Part shown: in pieces, positions 30,738 through 39,373 of the stretch
Position numbering within the stretch: position 1 is the first letter of the stretch
Layout of the letters: each line of letters opens with the position of its first letter
Assembly: GCF_947495255.1 (NCBI RefSeq)
Contig: NZ_CANLYI010000004.1
Coordinates: 310,001-374,000, forward strand
DNA length: 64,000 nt
Source of the DNA: an uncultured Winogradskyella sp.
Lineage (GTDB): Bacteria > Bacteroidota > Bacteroidia > Flavobacteriales > Flavobacteriaceae
Direction of reading: 5' to 3'
Made by a program: the position numbers and the translations under genes
The notes under the pieces: model-generated
Told to the model about the DNA's origin: nothing
The model's input: the letters and a program-made list of their open reading frames with translations, nothing else
Databases searched by the model: none

Positions 30738-32198
<1,461 letters not shown>

Positions 32199-32296: not shown

Positions 32297-33397
32297 TTAC
32301 TTATTCACAGAGAAAATATCTTTTAATTGTTCAATGACGTTACCGTTGCCAGCAACTGTGATTTCGCCAATTTTATCAGCAATTTTCTCAACATATTCCA
32401 TCTCTTTTAATTTAAACAACATGCTGTTGTCTTCCATTAATTTCGCGGTATTCAACAAGCTACGAGTAGAAGCTGTTTCTTCTCGTCTTGTCACCACATT
32501 AGCTTGCGCTTTTTTGTGAGCAATCAAAACTTGGTTCATAATGTCTTTCATATCACCTGGTAAAATGACGTCTCTAATACCAGAATGTAATACATTAACA
32601 CCTAATTTGGTGGCTTGTGTTTTTACGTTTTTCAAAACAGCTTCGGCAATGGTTTCCTTTTGCTCTAACAATTCGTCTAAAGTGTAAGCACCAACAAATG
32701 CTCTTAATGCCAATTGTAAAATTGTGTACAATTGTTTTTCGTAATCTTTGTTATGCATTAACGCTGTTTCAACGTCTGTAACTTTATATTGTGCATAAAA
32801 GTTAATACGAACTGTTGCTTTGTCTTTGGTCAATAATTCTTGACCAGCAACTTCTAATTGTAATTGACGCATATCGGCTTTTGCGATCTTAATGGTTTGC
32901 TCGTTTTTCCAGAAATGATAAGTACCATGCTCTAGGATTTTAACAAACGTATCATTAACAATCATAATAGCTTTCTCAAAAGCGGCAACTTCAAAAGTTC
33001 TAATGTATTGACGCAATTGCATGTTGCTATACAAAGCTTTACTGATATCTTCTGTAATTTCGATTTTACTTAAATCGGCAGTTACAAATTTGTAGTCAAT
33101 TAAGCTGTTCCAAAATGCATAACGACCAGCAGTTAAGATGCGTTTAAAGTTATTGTTTTCGTAAACCAAAACAATCTCATTATCCTTTACATTAATTATA
33201 GTTAACATTGCTGCTAAGACTTCATCTTTAAGCAAGATTTCTAATGCTTTTGGTGCACTGAAAGCTTGTGATAAGTCGAACCTTAAGACTTGCTCACTAA
33301 ATTTTATCCAATGTTTTCCTGCCGTAATAACACGCGTGTAATTACCATTTTTAAACACTAAACCTACTGTACCTGCATGAATTCTTTCTCTATACAT
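32297..33397 (-). CDS. slipin (SPFH/band-7 family) next to rtcB
   Basis: A slipin-type SPFH protein. The open frame reaches 33454, but the ATG at 33397 (MYRERIHAGTVGLV) is preceded by AAATTAGAAATC, nearly identical to the AATTAGAAAAC before the rtcB ATG, so 366 residues is preferred. The N-terminal region has two related repeats (GLVFKNGNYTRVITAGKHW and VLVYENNNFKRILTAGRY), then the SPFH core and coiled C-terminus. No clear membrane helix is seen. Slipins are known neighbours of RtcB in RNA-repair gene clusters. No terminator was found between the tRNA-like array and this gene, so the array may be its leader. Confidence 0.85.
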   Translation of the reverse strand: MYRERIHAGTVGLVFKNGNYTRVITAGKHWIKFSEQVLRFDLSQAFSAPKALEILLKDEVLAAMLTIINVKDNEIVLVYENNNFKRILTAGRYAFWNSLIDYKFVTADLSKIEITEDISKALYSNMQLRQYIRTFEVAAFEKAIMIVNDTFVKILEHGTYHFWKNEQTIKIAKADMRQLQLEVAGQELLTKDKATVRINFYAQYKVTDVETALMHNKDYEKQLYTILQLALRAFVGAYTLDELLEQKETIAEAVLKNVKTQATKLGVNVLHSGIRDVILPGDMKDIMNQVLIAHKKAQANVVTRREETASTRSLLNTAKLMEDNSMLFKLKEMEYVEKIADKIGEITVAGNGNVIEQLKDIFSVNK

Positions 33398-33792
33398 GAT
33401 TTCTAATTTTTTGTCCTTAAGTTTTCTTTTTTTTACTTCAGAACGGTTATACATTTATAATAGAATTCTCTTTTTGAGAATGACTATTCGGTTAAAACAA
33501 AGTGAAAGAAAACCATCTTTCTAACTACGGAAATACAACAGATTTTAAGTGTTTTTAGAATTGTTTTGCAGATGATTTATCAATACAGAAACGACAATTG
33601 CCGAAACTATAATTGAAAAATGAATCTTTAAAAGAATACCTAAAGCGACCTACAATACAATTTGTATGTCAAGGTGTTTTCTAGACTGCTCAAGCAACGA
33701 ATTGCTTTTGCGAGTTTTAGTTCACTTTGTTTTTGCCATTTAAAGTGTGACGCACTTGGTGGTTAGTTTTGTGAGTTAACCAGCTCTGGGAT
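33398..33792 (-). other. long leader between the tRNA-like array and slipin
   Basis: No gene is visible here. Three hairpins can be read on the minus strand: TGGTTA / TAACCA (around 33782-33760); AAGTG / CACTT (around 33755-33740); and AAGCAA-UUCG-TTGCTT (33707-33692), a very stable UUCG tetraloop. An ATACAA/TTGTAT inverted repeat lies at 33655-33667. None is followed by a T-run, so none is a convincing terminator. These may be 3' processing or protective structures of the array RNA. Confidence 0.45.
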
Positions 33793-33832
33793 ATGGATTA
33801 TGAGTCCATTTCAAACTGTAACCGAAATACAG
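33793..33832 (-). ncRNA. two anticodon-arm-like hairpins after permuted module 2
   Basis: On the minus strand CTGTA-TTTCGGT-TACAG (33832-33816) and ATGGA-CTCATAA-TCCAT (33809-33793) are each a perfect 5-bp stem with a 7-nt loop, exactly the size of an anticodon arm. With U at loop position 2, the triplets in anticodon position are UCG (Arg) and CAU (Met). The second loop is identical to the usual tRNA-Met loop. GCTCTG (33835-33830) and CAGAGC (33788-33783) can also pair around them. Neither hairpin is followed by a T-arm. Confidence 0.5.
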
Positions 33833-33893
33833 AGCGTCTGCCAGTTCCGCCACAAACCGAATGTCGGTTTGGTAGGATTCGAACCTACATATT
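33826..33893 (-). ncRNA. circularly permuted tRNA-like module 2 (Y-RNA-like)
   Basis: Minus-strand order: T-arm GTAGG-TTCGAAT-CCTAC (33888-33872); acceptor 3' strand CAAACCG; loop ACATT; acceptor 5' strand CGGTTTG (perfect 7 bp); TG; D-arm GCG-GAACTGGCAGA-CGC (33850-33834), of the tRNA-Leu type with the GG pair kept. A closing stem AATAT/GTATT is possible but competes with the following UCG hairpin. The elbow elements (T-loop TTCGAAT, D-loop GG) are intact, while 5' and 3' tRNA ends do not exist because the acceptor is closed. This is the topology of the bacterial YrlA tRNA-mimic domain. Confidence 0.75.
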
Positions 33894-33895
33894 GA

Positions 33896-33964
33896 ATCTA
33901 TTGCTATAACCGCTTTAGCTACTTCCCGTTAGAGAAGACAGGATTCGAACCTGTGTACATAGAT
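33896..33964 (-). ncRNA. circularly permuted tRNA-like module 1 (Y-RNA-like)
   Basis: Minus-strand order: ATCTAT (33964-33959); variable GTAC; T-arm ACAGG-TTCGAAT-CCTGT (33954-33938); acceptor 3' strand CTTCTCT; loop AA; acceptor 5' strand CGGGAAG (six pairs including one G-T, end pair open); TA; D-arm GCTA-AAGCGGTTA-TAGC (33919-33903); A; ATAGAT (33901-33896). The last six bases pair perfectly with the first six and take the place of the anticodon stem. So every helix of a tRNA is present but the chain is opened in the anticodon loop and sealed at the acceptor end. Read in ordinary tRNA order, no acceptor partner for CTTCTCT exists upstream. Confidence 0.78.
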
Positions 33965-33967
33965 GGT

Positions 33968-33990
33968 GGTTATTCTTTTGGCAAATAACC
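33968..33990 (-). ncRNA. stem-loop preceding permuted module 1
   Basis: GGTTATT (33990-33984) and AATAACC (33974-33968) form a 7-bp stem, extendable by a T-G pair to leave a 7-nt loop GCCAAAA. It is separated from module 1 by 3 nt. It could be the basal stem of the module 1 RNA or a spacer hairpin. Confidence 0.45.
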
Positions 33991-34083: not shown

Positions 34084-34090
34084 CTTGATG

Positions 34091-34172
34091 TGGAAGCAGT
34101 AGGACTCGAACCTACAAGCTATAATAGACCTGATTTACAGTCAGGCGAGCCAACCAATTGCTCAATGCTTCC
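34091..34172 (-). tRNA. tRNA-Tyr(GUA)-like cloverleaf
   Basis: A complete 82-nt cloverleaf on the minus strand: acceptor GGAAGCA/TGCTTCC (7 perfect pairs), D-arm GAGC-AATTGGTTG-GCTC, anticodon arm CCTGA-CTGTAAA-TCAGG with anticodon GUA, a 13-nt variable region that can form a short CTA/TAG arm as in bacterial type II tRNA-Tyr, T-arm GTAGG-TTCGAGT-CCTAC and discriminator A. CCA is not encoded. Identity elements for tyrosyl-tRNA synthetase appear present. Its location at the head of an array of tRNA-like modules upstream of slipin and rtcB is unusual; it may be an extra tyrosine tRNA, a sensor or a repair substrate. Confidence 0.82.
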
Positions 34173-34281: not shown

Positions 34282-34317
34282 CAAATATTCTGAGCTGTTG
34301 CGCAATCTTTTTGCGTA
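34282..34317 (-). promoter_or_regulatory. promoter of the tRNA-like array with RNA-repair operator
   Basis: Minus-strand order: TACGCA (34317-34312), 7 nt, TGCGCA (34304-34299), 13 nt, TTTG (34285-34282). The -7 box AATATTTG equals that of rtcB. It lies just after the stop of the TPR gene and about 110 nt before the Tyr-like cloverleaf, so it should drive the array and probably slipin. The following GTGTAATTAA and TTAGAA words repeat the rtcB leader. Confidence 0.78.
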
Positions 34318-35293: not shown

Positions 35294-35890
35294 TTAAAAA
35301 GCAAATAATTTTGATTTAAAAGTTGGTTTTCTGGTTTTGGGCAGCGTTTTTATGTGCTTGATTTCTTGATTTTTGTCAAGTAAATCTAAGAACAAAACTT
35401 CTTTTTTGTCGTCAATAGTTTTACAGTTTTTTAAGCTTTCTAAGACGATTTTTGCGTAGGTAACTGTTCTAGAATTTATTTCCTTTAGTGAGCCTTTTGT
35501 GTAATTTGTGTAGTCATAACCATCAAATGAAAAATATAAACTATAAAATTCTTCATATACCGTTGATTCTATTTCAAAATTAAAATCTTCAATAATGTTA
35601 AACACATATTTTTCTAAATGTTTTGCTGTATTTGAGTTCACAATTTTTCTGCAATTCACTTCAATTTTCATAACGGCTAAATGCTCTTCATTAAATAGAG
35701 TTGAAGCTATATATTTGAGGTCTTTTAGTGCAGTTTTTTTTCTGTAATTGATAGTTATAACTTCAAATATTAGTGAGTTTTCTTTTAAATTTTCATTTAA
35801 TAAATCTGACTTATATAACCATGTTTCAAATTCTTCAATGGTAATATCATTGACTAAGACTTCGAATATTTTCAACTTTAAAGTTTCCAT
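35294..35890 (-). CDS. uncharacterised protein under the RNA-repair operator
   Basis: The frame is open to 35908, but the -7 box lies at 35909-35906, so the ATG at 35890 (METLKLKIFEVL) is the start, giving 198 residues. The protein is cytoplasmic by appearance, mixed alpha/beta, acidic in the middle and basic at the end (KTLPKTRKPTFKSKLFAF). Its N-terminus (about 1-60) has the feel of small immunity-type or regulatory proteins but no family is recognised. Because its promoter carries the same operator as rtcB and the tRNA-like array with the same 13-nt spacing, it is a good candidate for an unknown RNA-repair component. Confidence 0.7.
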   Translation of the reverse strand: METLKLKIFEVLVNDITIEEFETWLYKSDLLNENLKENSLIFEVITINYRKKTALKDLKYIASTLFNEEHLAVMKIEVNCRKIVNSNTAKHLEKYVFNIIEDFNFEIESTVYEEFYSLYFSFDGYDYTNYTKGSLKEINSRTVTYAKIVLESLKNCKTIDDKKEVLFLDLLDKNQEIKHIKTLPKTRKPTFKSKLFAF

Positions 35891-35905
35891 TTTATTAATT
35901 TTAAT

Positions 35906-35941
35906 CAAATGTCTTTAGATGTTGCGCAATCTTTTTGCGTA
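35906..35941 (-). promoter_or_regulatory. third copy of the RNA-repair operator promoter
   Basis: Minus-strand order: TACGCA (35941-35936), 7 nt, TGCGCA (35928-35923), 13 nt, TTTG (35909-35906), only about 15 nt before the ATG at 35890. A continuous 24-nt stretch here is identical to the one at 34297-34320. The rest of the gap to 36057 has nothing further that I recognise. Confidence 0.78.
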
Positions 35942-38362: not shown

Positions 38363-39373
38363 ATGGCAGTAAATAAAAACGCATTAATAAGATATAAAAC
38401 CATTGATATATGTCTTCAGAATCAGTTTAGACAATGGACGCTTAACGACTTAATTGAAGCGGTTTCAGATGCTTTACACGAATACGAAGGCAAAGATATT
38501 GATGTCAGTAAAAGAACTGTTCAGTTAGATATACAAATGATGCGAAGTGACAAGTTAGGTTACAATGCTCCCATTGTAGTTTATGACCGTAAGTTTTATA
38601 AATATGAAGATGCTGATTATAGTATTATTAATATTCCTGTAACAGATAAGGATATTAAAGTAATGAATGAGGCAATTCAGTTACTGAGACAGTTCAAAGA
38701 TTTTTCGTTATTTAAAGAAATGGATGGTGTTTTACAACGTTTAGAAGACTCGGTAAATTCATCACAGAAAGACAAACGAGCCATTATTCATTTAGATAAA
38801 AATGAACAGCTAAAAGGGCTTGAATTTATCGATGTTTTATACGATGCTATTCAAACTAAAAAGGTGATTGAAGTATCTTATCAATCTTTTAAAGCTCGTA
38901 ATGCTAATGTGCAGAAAGTTCATCCACAATTACTAAAAGAATTTAATAATCGATGGTTTTTATTAGCAAGTCAAAAAGGAAAATTTATCACTTTGGCTTT
39001 AGACAGAATGACTGAAATTGTAATGCTTGAAAATGAAAATTATGAGGATTTTCAAATTGATGGTGATGTGTATTACAGAGACGTTGTTGGTGTTACAGTT
39101 TCAAATTCTAGAGCAGAACGCATTCAGTTTAAAATAGACAATAAAAACGCTCCTTACGTCATTACAAAGCCTTTTCATGCATCACAACGTATCATTGAAA
39201 GAACAAACAATGGTGTGATTTTCAATATTTTTGTGCAAATTAATTTTGAATTGGAACGCTTAATTTTAGGATTTGGTGATAGTATTGAAGTTTTAAAACC
39301 TTTAAAACTGAGGAATAGAATGCTTAAAAAATTGAAAACTTCAGTAAGAAATTATGAGGAAATTGAAAATTGA
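38363..39373 (+). CDS. WYL-domain transcriptional regulator
   Basis: A 336-residue protein with an N-terminal winged helix-turn-helix (about 1-85, VSKRTVQLDIQMMRSD) and a WYL domain (about 165-240) seen in IEVSYQSFKARNANVQKVHPQLLKEFNNRWFLLAS. WYL regulators bind nucleic-acid-derived or other ligands and control stress and defence genes in several systems. The gene is the only transcription factor close to the RNA-repair operators, so it is a candidate to bind TACGCA-N7-TGCGYA; this is inference. The 3' end overlaps the convergent ABC gene by 22 nt. Confidence 0.88.
   Translation: MAVNKNALIRYKTIDICLQNQFRQWTLNDLIEAVSDALHEYEGKDIDVSKRTVQLDIQMMRSDKLGYNAPIVVYDRKFYKYEDADYSIINIPVTDKDIKVMNEAIQLLRQFKDFSLFKEMDGVLQRLEDSVNSSQKDKRAIIHLDKNEQLKGLEFIDVLYDAIQTKKVIEVSYQSFKARNANVQKVHPQLLKEFNNRWFLLASQKGKFITLALDRMTEIVMLENENYEDFQIDGDVYYRDVVGVTVSNSRAERIQFKIDNKNAPYVITKPFHASQRIIERTNNGVIFNIFVQINFELERLILGFGDSIEVLKPLKLRNRMLKKLKTSVRNYEEIEN

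Follow-up and report, generated by a model that had tools for sequence, protein, structure and literature searches.

In Salmonella, the regulator RtcR is activated by 5′ tRNA halves carrying a cyclic phosphate and turns on rsr-yrlBA-rtcBA; the tRNA-like domain of the YrlA RNA is not cut by an anticodon nuclease, and the authors considered it a possible competitive inhibitor (accessible part of PMC7790460). In Anabaena, a trn array, rtcB, and slipin are placed under the one repressor TrcR, whose action is relieved by translation stress (excerpts of PMC10272220), and in Pseudomonas aeruginosa the SPFH gene PaFlo8 lies inside the rtc locus (excerpts of PMC13086221). The available passages of the latter two papers do not mention a tRNA-like RNA that accompanies the SPFH gene, and no paper on a slipin-linked tRNA-like RNA was found in the accessible portion of the open literature. 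Phages and prophages are reported to carry the RNAs GOLLD (RF02032) and ROOL close to their tRNA islands (PMC12286853, in excerpt).

The locus analyzed here lies in a window of 64,000 nucleotides from an uncultured Winogradskyella sp. (contig NZ_CANLYI010000004.1, positions 310,001 to 374,000); coordinates below are those of the window, and features are on the minus strand unless stated otherwise. The locus resembles that of YrlA (RF02553) in a permuted tRNA-like domain (T-arm, closed acceptor stem, D-arm) and in its RNA-repair neighborhood. It differs in the WYL regulator that stands beside it instead of RtcR, in the several modules of its RNA, in an RNA 5′ three-way junction of its own, in slipin as the constant partner, and in a score under the family cutoff. 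The topology is known from YrlA; two further YrlA features, the Ro gene and the family score, were not found here. With the PaFlo8 locus it shares an SPFH gene inside an RNA-repair locus, and with the TrcR regulon the combination of slipin, rtcB, and a tRNA array, as far as the excerpts of both papers describe them. GOLLD and ROOL are likewise large structured RNAs beside tRNA arrays, but their structure differs from that of the window RNA, and no GOLLD match was obtained in the window or in the window's genome.

Results

Permuted modules in the middle of a longer RNA

Two tRNA-like modules can be read directly on the minus strand in the order T-arm, acceptor 3′ strand, short loop, acceptor 5′ strand, D-arm. 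Both had been described by a sequence-only reading of the window, and on re-reading they were present as written, with correct pair counts. Module 1 (33896–33964) consists of an ATCTAT strand, a T-arm (33938–33954), a closed acceptor hairpin (33922–33937), a D-arm (33903–33919), and an ATAGAT strand; the ATCTAT/ATAGAT helix, open at its end, closes the module at the position of the anticodon stem. Module 2 (33816–33888) is built of a T-arm, a closed acceptor hairpin (33853–33871), a D-arm, and an intact anticodon-type arm (33816–33832) with a loop of 7 nt. The acceptor loops of the two modules have 2 or 5 bases, and a second anticodon-type hairpin (5-bp stem, 7-nt loop) lies at 33793–33809.

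Both modules belong to a longer RNA, of which they form the middle and which has its own covarying 5′ three-way junction. The array proposed by the sequence-only reading corresponded to that middle; the longer RNA and the anticodon-type arm of module 2 had escaped it. The first element of the array is tRNA-Tyr (GTA; 34090–34172), the only tRNA reported by ARAGORN in the window. It is followed by the 5′ domain of about 90 nt, folded as the three-way junction P1/P2/P3 (33999–34089), and by a covarying hairpin (33968–33990, helix 6 of alignment A3) with a mostly conserved (A/G)CCAAA loop. Alignment A3, covering the 5′ domain and this hairpin in 57 of 59 rows (L101 and L107 left out), was 97.5% paired vs. 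89.2% in shuffles, with double changes in 23/37 pairs of a structure derived from the same alignment. The T-loop of module 1 follows a conserved upstream anchor at a distance of 112–129 nt in 78/83 rows. Some relatives have three modules (L014 by eye; L118 and L120, for example, by scan). Downstream of module 2, no convincing common structure was obtained in the broad set (36/90 pairs).

At gathering score, Rfam matched nothing of the RNA in the window and six other loci except tRNA readings that cross the chain. The one in the window (33864–33928; 31.2 bits, gathering score 29) needs the 5′ half of module 1 together with the T-arm of module 2, and three of its acceptor pairs are non-standard. 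Similar readings occur in relatives: ARAGORN called an ordinary tRNA over a portion of the chain in L044, L102, L105, L107, L108, and L112, and the Rfam tRNA model matched across it in L044, L070, and L090 (32–40 bits). Weak tmRNA matches (17–19 bits) were taken as tRNA-like matches only. The single-strand fold of the window stretch was unremarkable (z −1.84) and was given no weight.

Covariation of the modules

Conservation was followed upstream of slipin in 80 loci of named genomes, whose titles almost all give a Flavobacteriaceae genus. A scan that required pairing, run without a shuffled control and also catching some ordinary tRNA neighbors further upstream, detected closed-acceptor permuted units in 79/80 loci; the sole miss (L114) had only 478 nt of upstream sequence. 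Since this scanner requires pairing, a second test was made in which the T-loop was placed by its distance from the conserved upstream motif and acceptor pairing was not required. The permuted acceptor had at least 5/6 pairs in 69/84 loci. The same 5′ strand combined with the next 3′ strand, i.e., the normal-order fold against which the permuted one had to be weighed, reached at least 5/6 pairs in 1/84 loci only, and the reading of the chain as ordinary tRNAs was rejected on this count. Among the 15 loci with fewer permuted pairs, nine had a misplaced D-arm (L050, L054, L062, L072, L087, L102, L107, L111, and L120) and a paired acceptor found by another scan; the remaining six had 4/6 pairs.

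Compensatory changes, which the sequence-only reading had left to be looked for in relatives, were found throughout both modules. In the alignment of module 1 (A2; 66 of 83 distinct rows, 10 near-duplicates and the misregistered L057, L065, L066, L093, L098, L109, and L122 left out), picked by the scanner requiring T, acceptor, and D pairing, 94.3% of cells were paired vs. 73.8% in shuffles that ignore relatedness, with 322 double-change cells vs. 92.7 and changes on both sides in 21/22 pairs. For module 2 (A6; 48 of 63 rows, 15 with long acceptor loops or misregistration left out), under the same row selection and the same kind of shuffles, the corresponding values were 98.3% vs. 70.1% and 279 vs. 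79.4, with compensatory changes in 18/20 pairs. Slid-partner controls keep relatedness, and sliding the partner by one base in module 1 lowered the covariation score more than fourfold.

Free of row selection are, besides the 84-locus test, only three features of the alignments. The first is the anticodon-position stem of module 1 (ATCTAT/ATAGAT in the window), with 92% of cells paired and double changes in 5/5 pairs; the second is the anticodon arm of module 2, which was 99.6% paired. The third is formed by columns 13 and 76 of A2, which correspond to the tRNA tertiary pair 15–48: C-G in 59 rows, U-A in six, and unpaired in one. Because this pair is kept in 65/66 rows, the folded tRNA elbow of the permuted chain, which the sequence-only reading had held possible, is by the pattern of substitutions under selection. 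The acceptor sequences turn over among relatives while the shape is kept. That these loci encode a conserved structured RNA of this architecture is in our view practically beyond doubt.

Slipin as the constant partner

The covariance model of module 1 (R1) matched 296/296 Bacteroidota genomes and is thus not specific; its 30 best loci suggest that ordinary tRNA genes in tandem can be read as permuted units, too, particularly when the copies are identical. Therefore, the distribution of the RNA was followed with R2, a specific model of the 5′ domain. It matched 5/295 genomes sampled from the class and 23/199 Flavobacteriaceae genomes. The gene downstream of the RNA in the window, slipin (32297–33454), belongs to the Band_7/SPFH family (PF01145, E 2.2e-27) and was found at E 1e-60 in 23 of the same 199 genomes. 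RNA and slipin occurred together in 22 of them, on the same strand and 509–797 nt apart, and each occurred alone once. R2 had no match in G663, whose slipin is of only 48% identity. G666 lacks both the modules and slipin: read by eye at L187, its 5′ domain is truncated, and directly after it come an operator-like palindrome, a small ORF, and rtcB. Outside the family, a slipin-linked RNA was seen in L139 (same order) and in L156 of the same class, where rtcB adjoins slipin.

Slipin is hence the constant partner (22/22 shared genomes), and rtcB is a frequent but dispensable neighbor. RNA and slipin probably form one functional unit, judging from their co-occurrence, and the genetic linkage suggests that slipin may bind the RNA.

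PADLOC assigned neither slipin nor rtcB of the window to a defense family. Slipin gave one distant match in viral contigs and one short partial match in the phage collection, and the 5′ motif was not found in the viral contigs searched; a viral origin has little support.

Operator, rtcB and the WYL regulator

The palindrome TACGCA-N-TGCGYA has three copies in the window, where 0.02 matches are expected, and the whole genome has it at only one further place. Together with a −7 element (..ATATTTG) of the Bacteroidota type, it precedes the RNA/slipin unit (34282–34317, as TACGCA-N7-TGCGCA) and, separately, rtcB (32161–32196). Its third copy (35923–35941) lies upstream of a 204-aa ORF. Among relatives, the operator was found upstream of the RNA in 48/75 loci vs. 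0.4 expected. The 204-aa ORF itself (35294–35908) had no Pfam, NCBIfam, or PADLOC match. A WYL-WCX regulator is encoded on the plus strand at 38363–39373. Its relatives lie within the flanks of 15/80 loci, and in L014 a homolog adjoins the RNA (by eye); from position, we would guess that it reads the operator.

The terminator scan revealed a terminator-like site after slipin (32286–32261, between slipin and rtcB), while the stretch that separates the RNA from slipin has none on its minus strand. This fits one transcript of tRNA-Tyr, RNA, and slipin with rtcB separate. The rtcB gene (RNA ligase; 30738–32135) is the sole RtcB match of the window's genome. The RNA-repair neighborhood named by the sequence-only reading was borne out by the operator common to the RNA and rtcB and by the arrangement of the relatives: within 5-kb flanks, an rtcB match was present in 34/80 loci; in 19 of these it follows slipin on the same strand, and in 15 it lies upstream. 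Among 26 further genomes with the RNA, rtcB was found in 18; in seven of these it lies on the same strand 5–18 kb upstream (L068, L081, L100, L108, L113, L116, and L122; contig number agreeing with the record name). The same search gave no RtcB match in the other eight, and rtcB is therefore not a constant partner.

Two types of RtcB were observed upstream of the tRNA arrays, 3–5 kb upstream of slipin, one closely similar to the window's RtcB, seen as partial matches where the locus ends, and another with an identity of about 27–33% (L075, L080, L087, and L098, and L065, L073, L090, L103, L105, and L112, among others).

GOLLD matches lie 0.9–1.1 kb upstream of slipin in G004, G005, and G017 and just upstream of the RNA in L064. 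A GOLLD match was present in 5/60 relatives, three at the slipin locus by coordinates (G004, G005, and G017) plus G334 and G343; the matches that precede the permuted RNA, at L064:3746–4249 and in G004, G005, and G017, are below gathering score (E 1e-31 to 9e-37). By this position GOLLD, an RNA as yet unexplained, falls within an RNA-repair regulon.

Slipin loci in other groups

Among plasmid records, a few from several phyla hold slipin relatives with 33–38% identity over most of the query; coverage is at least 80% in 7 of the 68 matching records. Eight slipin loci from other groups were read, and all carry tRNA-like elements of mixed form, three of them, all enterobacterial, being detected by the strict closed-acceptor scan. 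In Citrobacter, the order is rtcR (annotated), a T-arm with closed acceptor, slipin, and a nucleotidyltransferase; the same T-arm with closed acceptor is present in two E. coli loci, and the E. coli slipin region was matched in 1625/5426 E. coli genomes. Subdoligranulum (L195) has a permuted unit by eye. Three Burkholderia loci have a normal-order tRNA-like element before slipin with the anticodon loop read as GAAA or AAA; ARAGORN reported two of them as tRNA-??? and that of L199 as tRNA-Phe(aaa). Photobacterium has two normal-order elements, one with a complete CAT loop. No Rfam YrlA match was obtained in L193 or L195.

By eye rather than by family search, the upstream ORFs in L197 and L198 look like RtcR. 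Also by eye, the sequences before the RNAs of these loci look like sigma-54 promoters. A common denominator across the groups would be a tRNA T-arm with its acceptor stem, mostly without a usable anticodon; this comparison across phyla covers a small number of loci and is the most tentative part of the work. The nucleotidyltransferase-domain genes that follow slipin in Citrobacter and E. coli lie at L193:8116–8901, L194:8101–8892, and L200:5551–6342.

Discussion

The analysis has led to an unassigned RNA family that has a constant protein partner and whose very strong covariation extends even to a tRNA tertiary contact. If RNA and slipin act as one unit, they would represent an unrecognized kind of RNA–protein machine. 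We propose, giving it about an even chance on the sequence evidence, that this is a slipin RNA–protein unit of the response to broken tRNAs. Its tRNA-like modules are hairpin-closed and seem to lack a usable anticodon, and damage to tRNAs would switch the unit on. By analogy, the logic would be the same as for Salmonella RtcR/YrlA and Anabaena TrcR. A WYL regulator would sense some product of RNA damage and act at the operator; a single transcript would comprise tRNA-Tyr, the RNA, and the slipin message, and rtcB would be expressed from its own operator copy. That tRNA damage induces the RNA/slipin unit could equally well be right or wrong. Slipin subunits might then build a ring or cage holding the RNA, whose modules would present tRNA elbows and acceptor stems without a working anticodon or a free 3′ end, and could be neither charged nor read. 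RtcB, where present, would meanwhile reseal the broken tRNAs. Several observations speak against this proposal: the 7-nt anticodon-type loop of module 2, the ordinary tRNA readings over the chain in some loci, the differing tRNA-like forms at slipin loci of other groups, and the 8/26 genomes in which rtcB was not found.

The modules may occupy or recruit tRNA-recognizing proteins, as a decoy or a handle; we put this role forward tentatively and regard it as somewhat doubtful. Varying acceptor stems with a kept elbow are the pattern expected of a molecule recognized by its shape, so both models are directly testable. If the unit works as proposed, it would explain SPFH genes in RNA-repair loci and offer a reason for tRNA arrays and GOLLD at these loci, and cells may answer broken tRNAs with tRNA decoys in a protein cage.

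The last image recalls the eukaryotic-type vault of MVP and vault RNA. The predicted slipin model has three tandem beta repeats, an SPFH shoulder domain, and a long helix, which may resemble the MVP domain layout (as given in the available part of PMC13347060), and among the matches listed only vault chains span the model from residue 22 to residues 338–342. In contrast to MVP, slipin has three repeats rather than nine within 385 aa, as far as the predicted model goes. When folded alone, its repeats matched vault repeats weakly and single SPFH sheets better, which weakens the vault claim, and at E 0.001 Band_7 was the only Pfam match of slipin, with no vault/MVP family among the matches. A bacterial vault, made upon the appearance of broken tRNAs from Bacteroidota to Pseudomonadota/Bacillota, with a slipin cage (three vault-type repeats, SPFH shoulder, and cap helix) around a tRNA-mimic RNA chain without usable anticodons, controlled by WYL in Bacteroidota and by RtcR in Pseudomonadota, is a speculative and rather unlikely extension of the predicted model. 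If true, it would be a counterpart of vault RNA and of Ro–Y RNA at once.

The strongest competitor of a slipin RNA–protein unit is a cis-acting slipin leader, in which tRNA-processing or tRNA-cutting enzymes recognize the modules and cleavage or occupancy tunes slipin expression. The same-strand position of the RNA 509–797 nt upstream of slipin in 22/22 genomes is what such a leader would equally give, and the lack of a terminator-like site before slipin, with one after it, suits it as well. In the close clade, moreover, sequence conservation runs on to the slipin start, with double changes in 28/109 predicted pairs from module 2 onward. However, two or three tRNA cores with a three-way junction exceed the needs of known leaders, the acceptor sequences turn over with the shape kept, and a complete tRNA-like unit stands upstream of slipin in Burkholderia and Photobacterium; on this balance we consider a leader improbable, though worth keeping in view.

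The RNA could also be a Bacteroidota branch of the YrlA Y RNAs, binding an unrecognized Ro-like protein. The permuted topology is the same, rtcB is in the neighborhood, and the Rfam YrlA model gives subthreshold matches in the window (33870–33977; 32.9 bits, E 3.7e-5, gathering score 69) and in 6/6 other loci (31–44 bits, best 43.7), so that no scanned locus reached the gathering score. In the YrlA alignment of the window, the outer helices, looked at for a Ro-binding stem, have many non-standard pairs. The assignment as Y-RNA-like, made by the sequence-only reading, was not upheld: a TROVE/Ro gene was detected in 0/26 genomes (the window's and 25 relatives, nine of them with slipin; 1/14 control genomes positive). 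Several modules per RNA, a different 5′ domain, and slipin rather than Ro as the constant neighbor also speak against a YrlA branch, which we hold to be quite improbable.

In circularly permuted tRNA genes of algae and archaea, the order is 3′ half, acceptor loop, 5′ half. The modules have the same order of halves, and genes of this type, whose anticodon ends RtcB would seal and whose acceptor loop RNase P and a 3′ nuclease would open, could yield working tRNAs; rtcB nearby and the acceptor loops of about 20 nt in some copies of module 1 would suit such a route. Unlike those genes, the window RNA is a tandem chain in a larger RNA, with acceptor loops down to 2 nt and without a conserved anticodon loop where the halves are broken. 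The open anticodon stem of module 1 covaries, but the bases next to it make up no such loop; the anticodon-type loops of module 2 differ among close relatives, and rtcB was not found in 8/26 genomes. In the many acceptor loops of only 2–5 nt there is no room for a discriminator and CCA end. Working permuted tRNAs are thus, in our estimate, even a little less probable than a YrlA branch. Functionless, decaying tRNA genes of a phage-type array would fit the true tRNA genes that precede the modules in many loci, such arrays being often acquired horizontally, but this explanation has next to no probability and is, in our view, refuted by the covariation of the helices, with the conserved tertiary pair, the near-perfect slipin linkage, and the near absence of slipin from viral and phage collections also against it.

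Two further observations concern the tRNA arrays. An insert of 55–65 nt was seen in or beside array tRNA genes upstream of the RNA, with 22 copies in 21/85 loci. Its 5′ side reads AAATGC-n-GCATTCA; the 3′ side is GA-rich, ends in TAA, and is often complementary to the end of the 5′ exon. It lies in the anticodon loop of tRNA-Tyr in L034, L045, L047, L053, L059, and L115 and in tRNA loops, often the T-loop, in L068, L070, L077, L083, L089, L092, and others. At this size it is too small for a group I intron; it may represent a tRNA intron joined by RtcB, or else a disabling insertion.

Closed-acceptor permuted arrays were also seen in other Bacteroidota (L135, L136, L138, L146, L154, and L157), with no slipin noticed in the 1.2 kb read at each of these loci. 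The arrays have common linkers, e.g., GTGCCGTAG..TACTTCG or GCGAATGCC..ACTACAT; L136 carries five or six tandem units, and an operator-like palindrome lies upstream of the array in L135.
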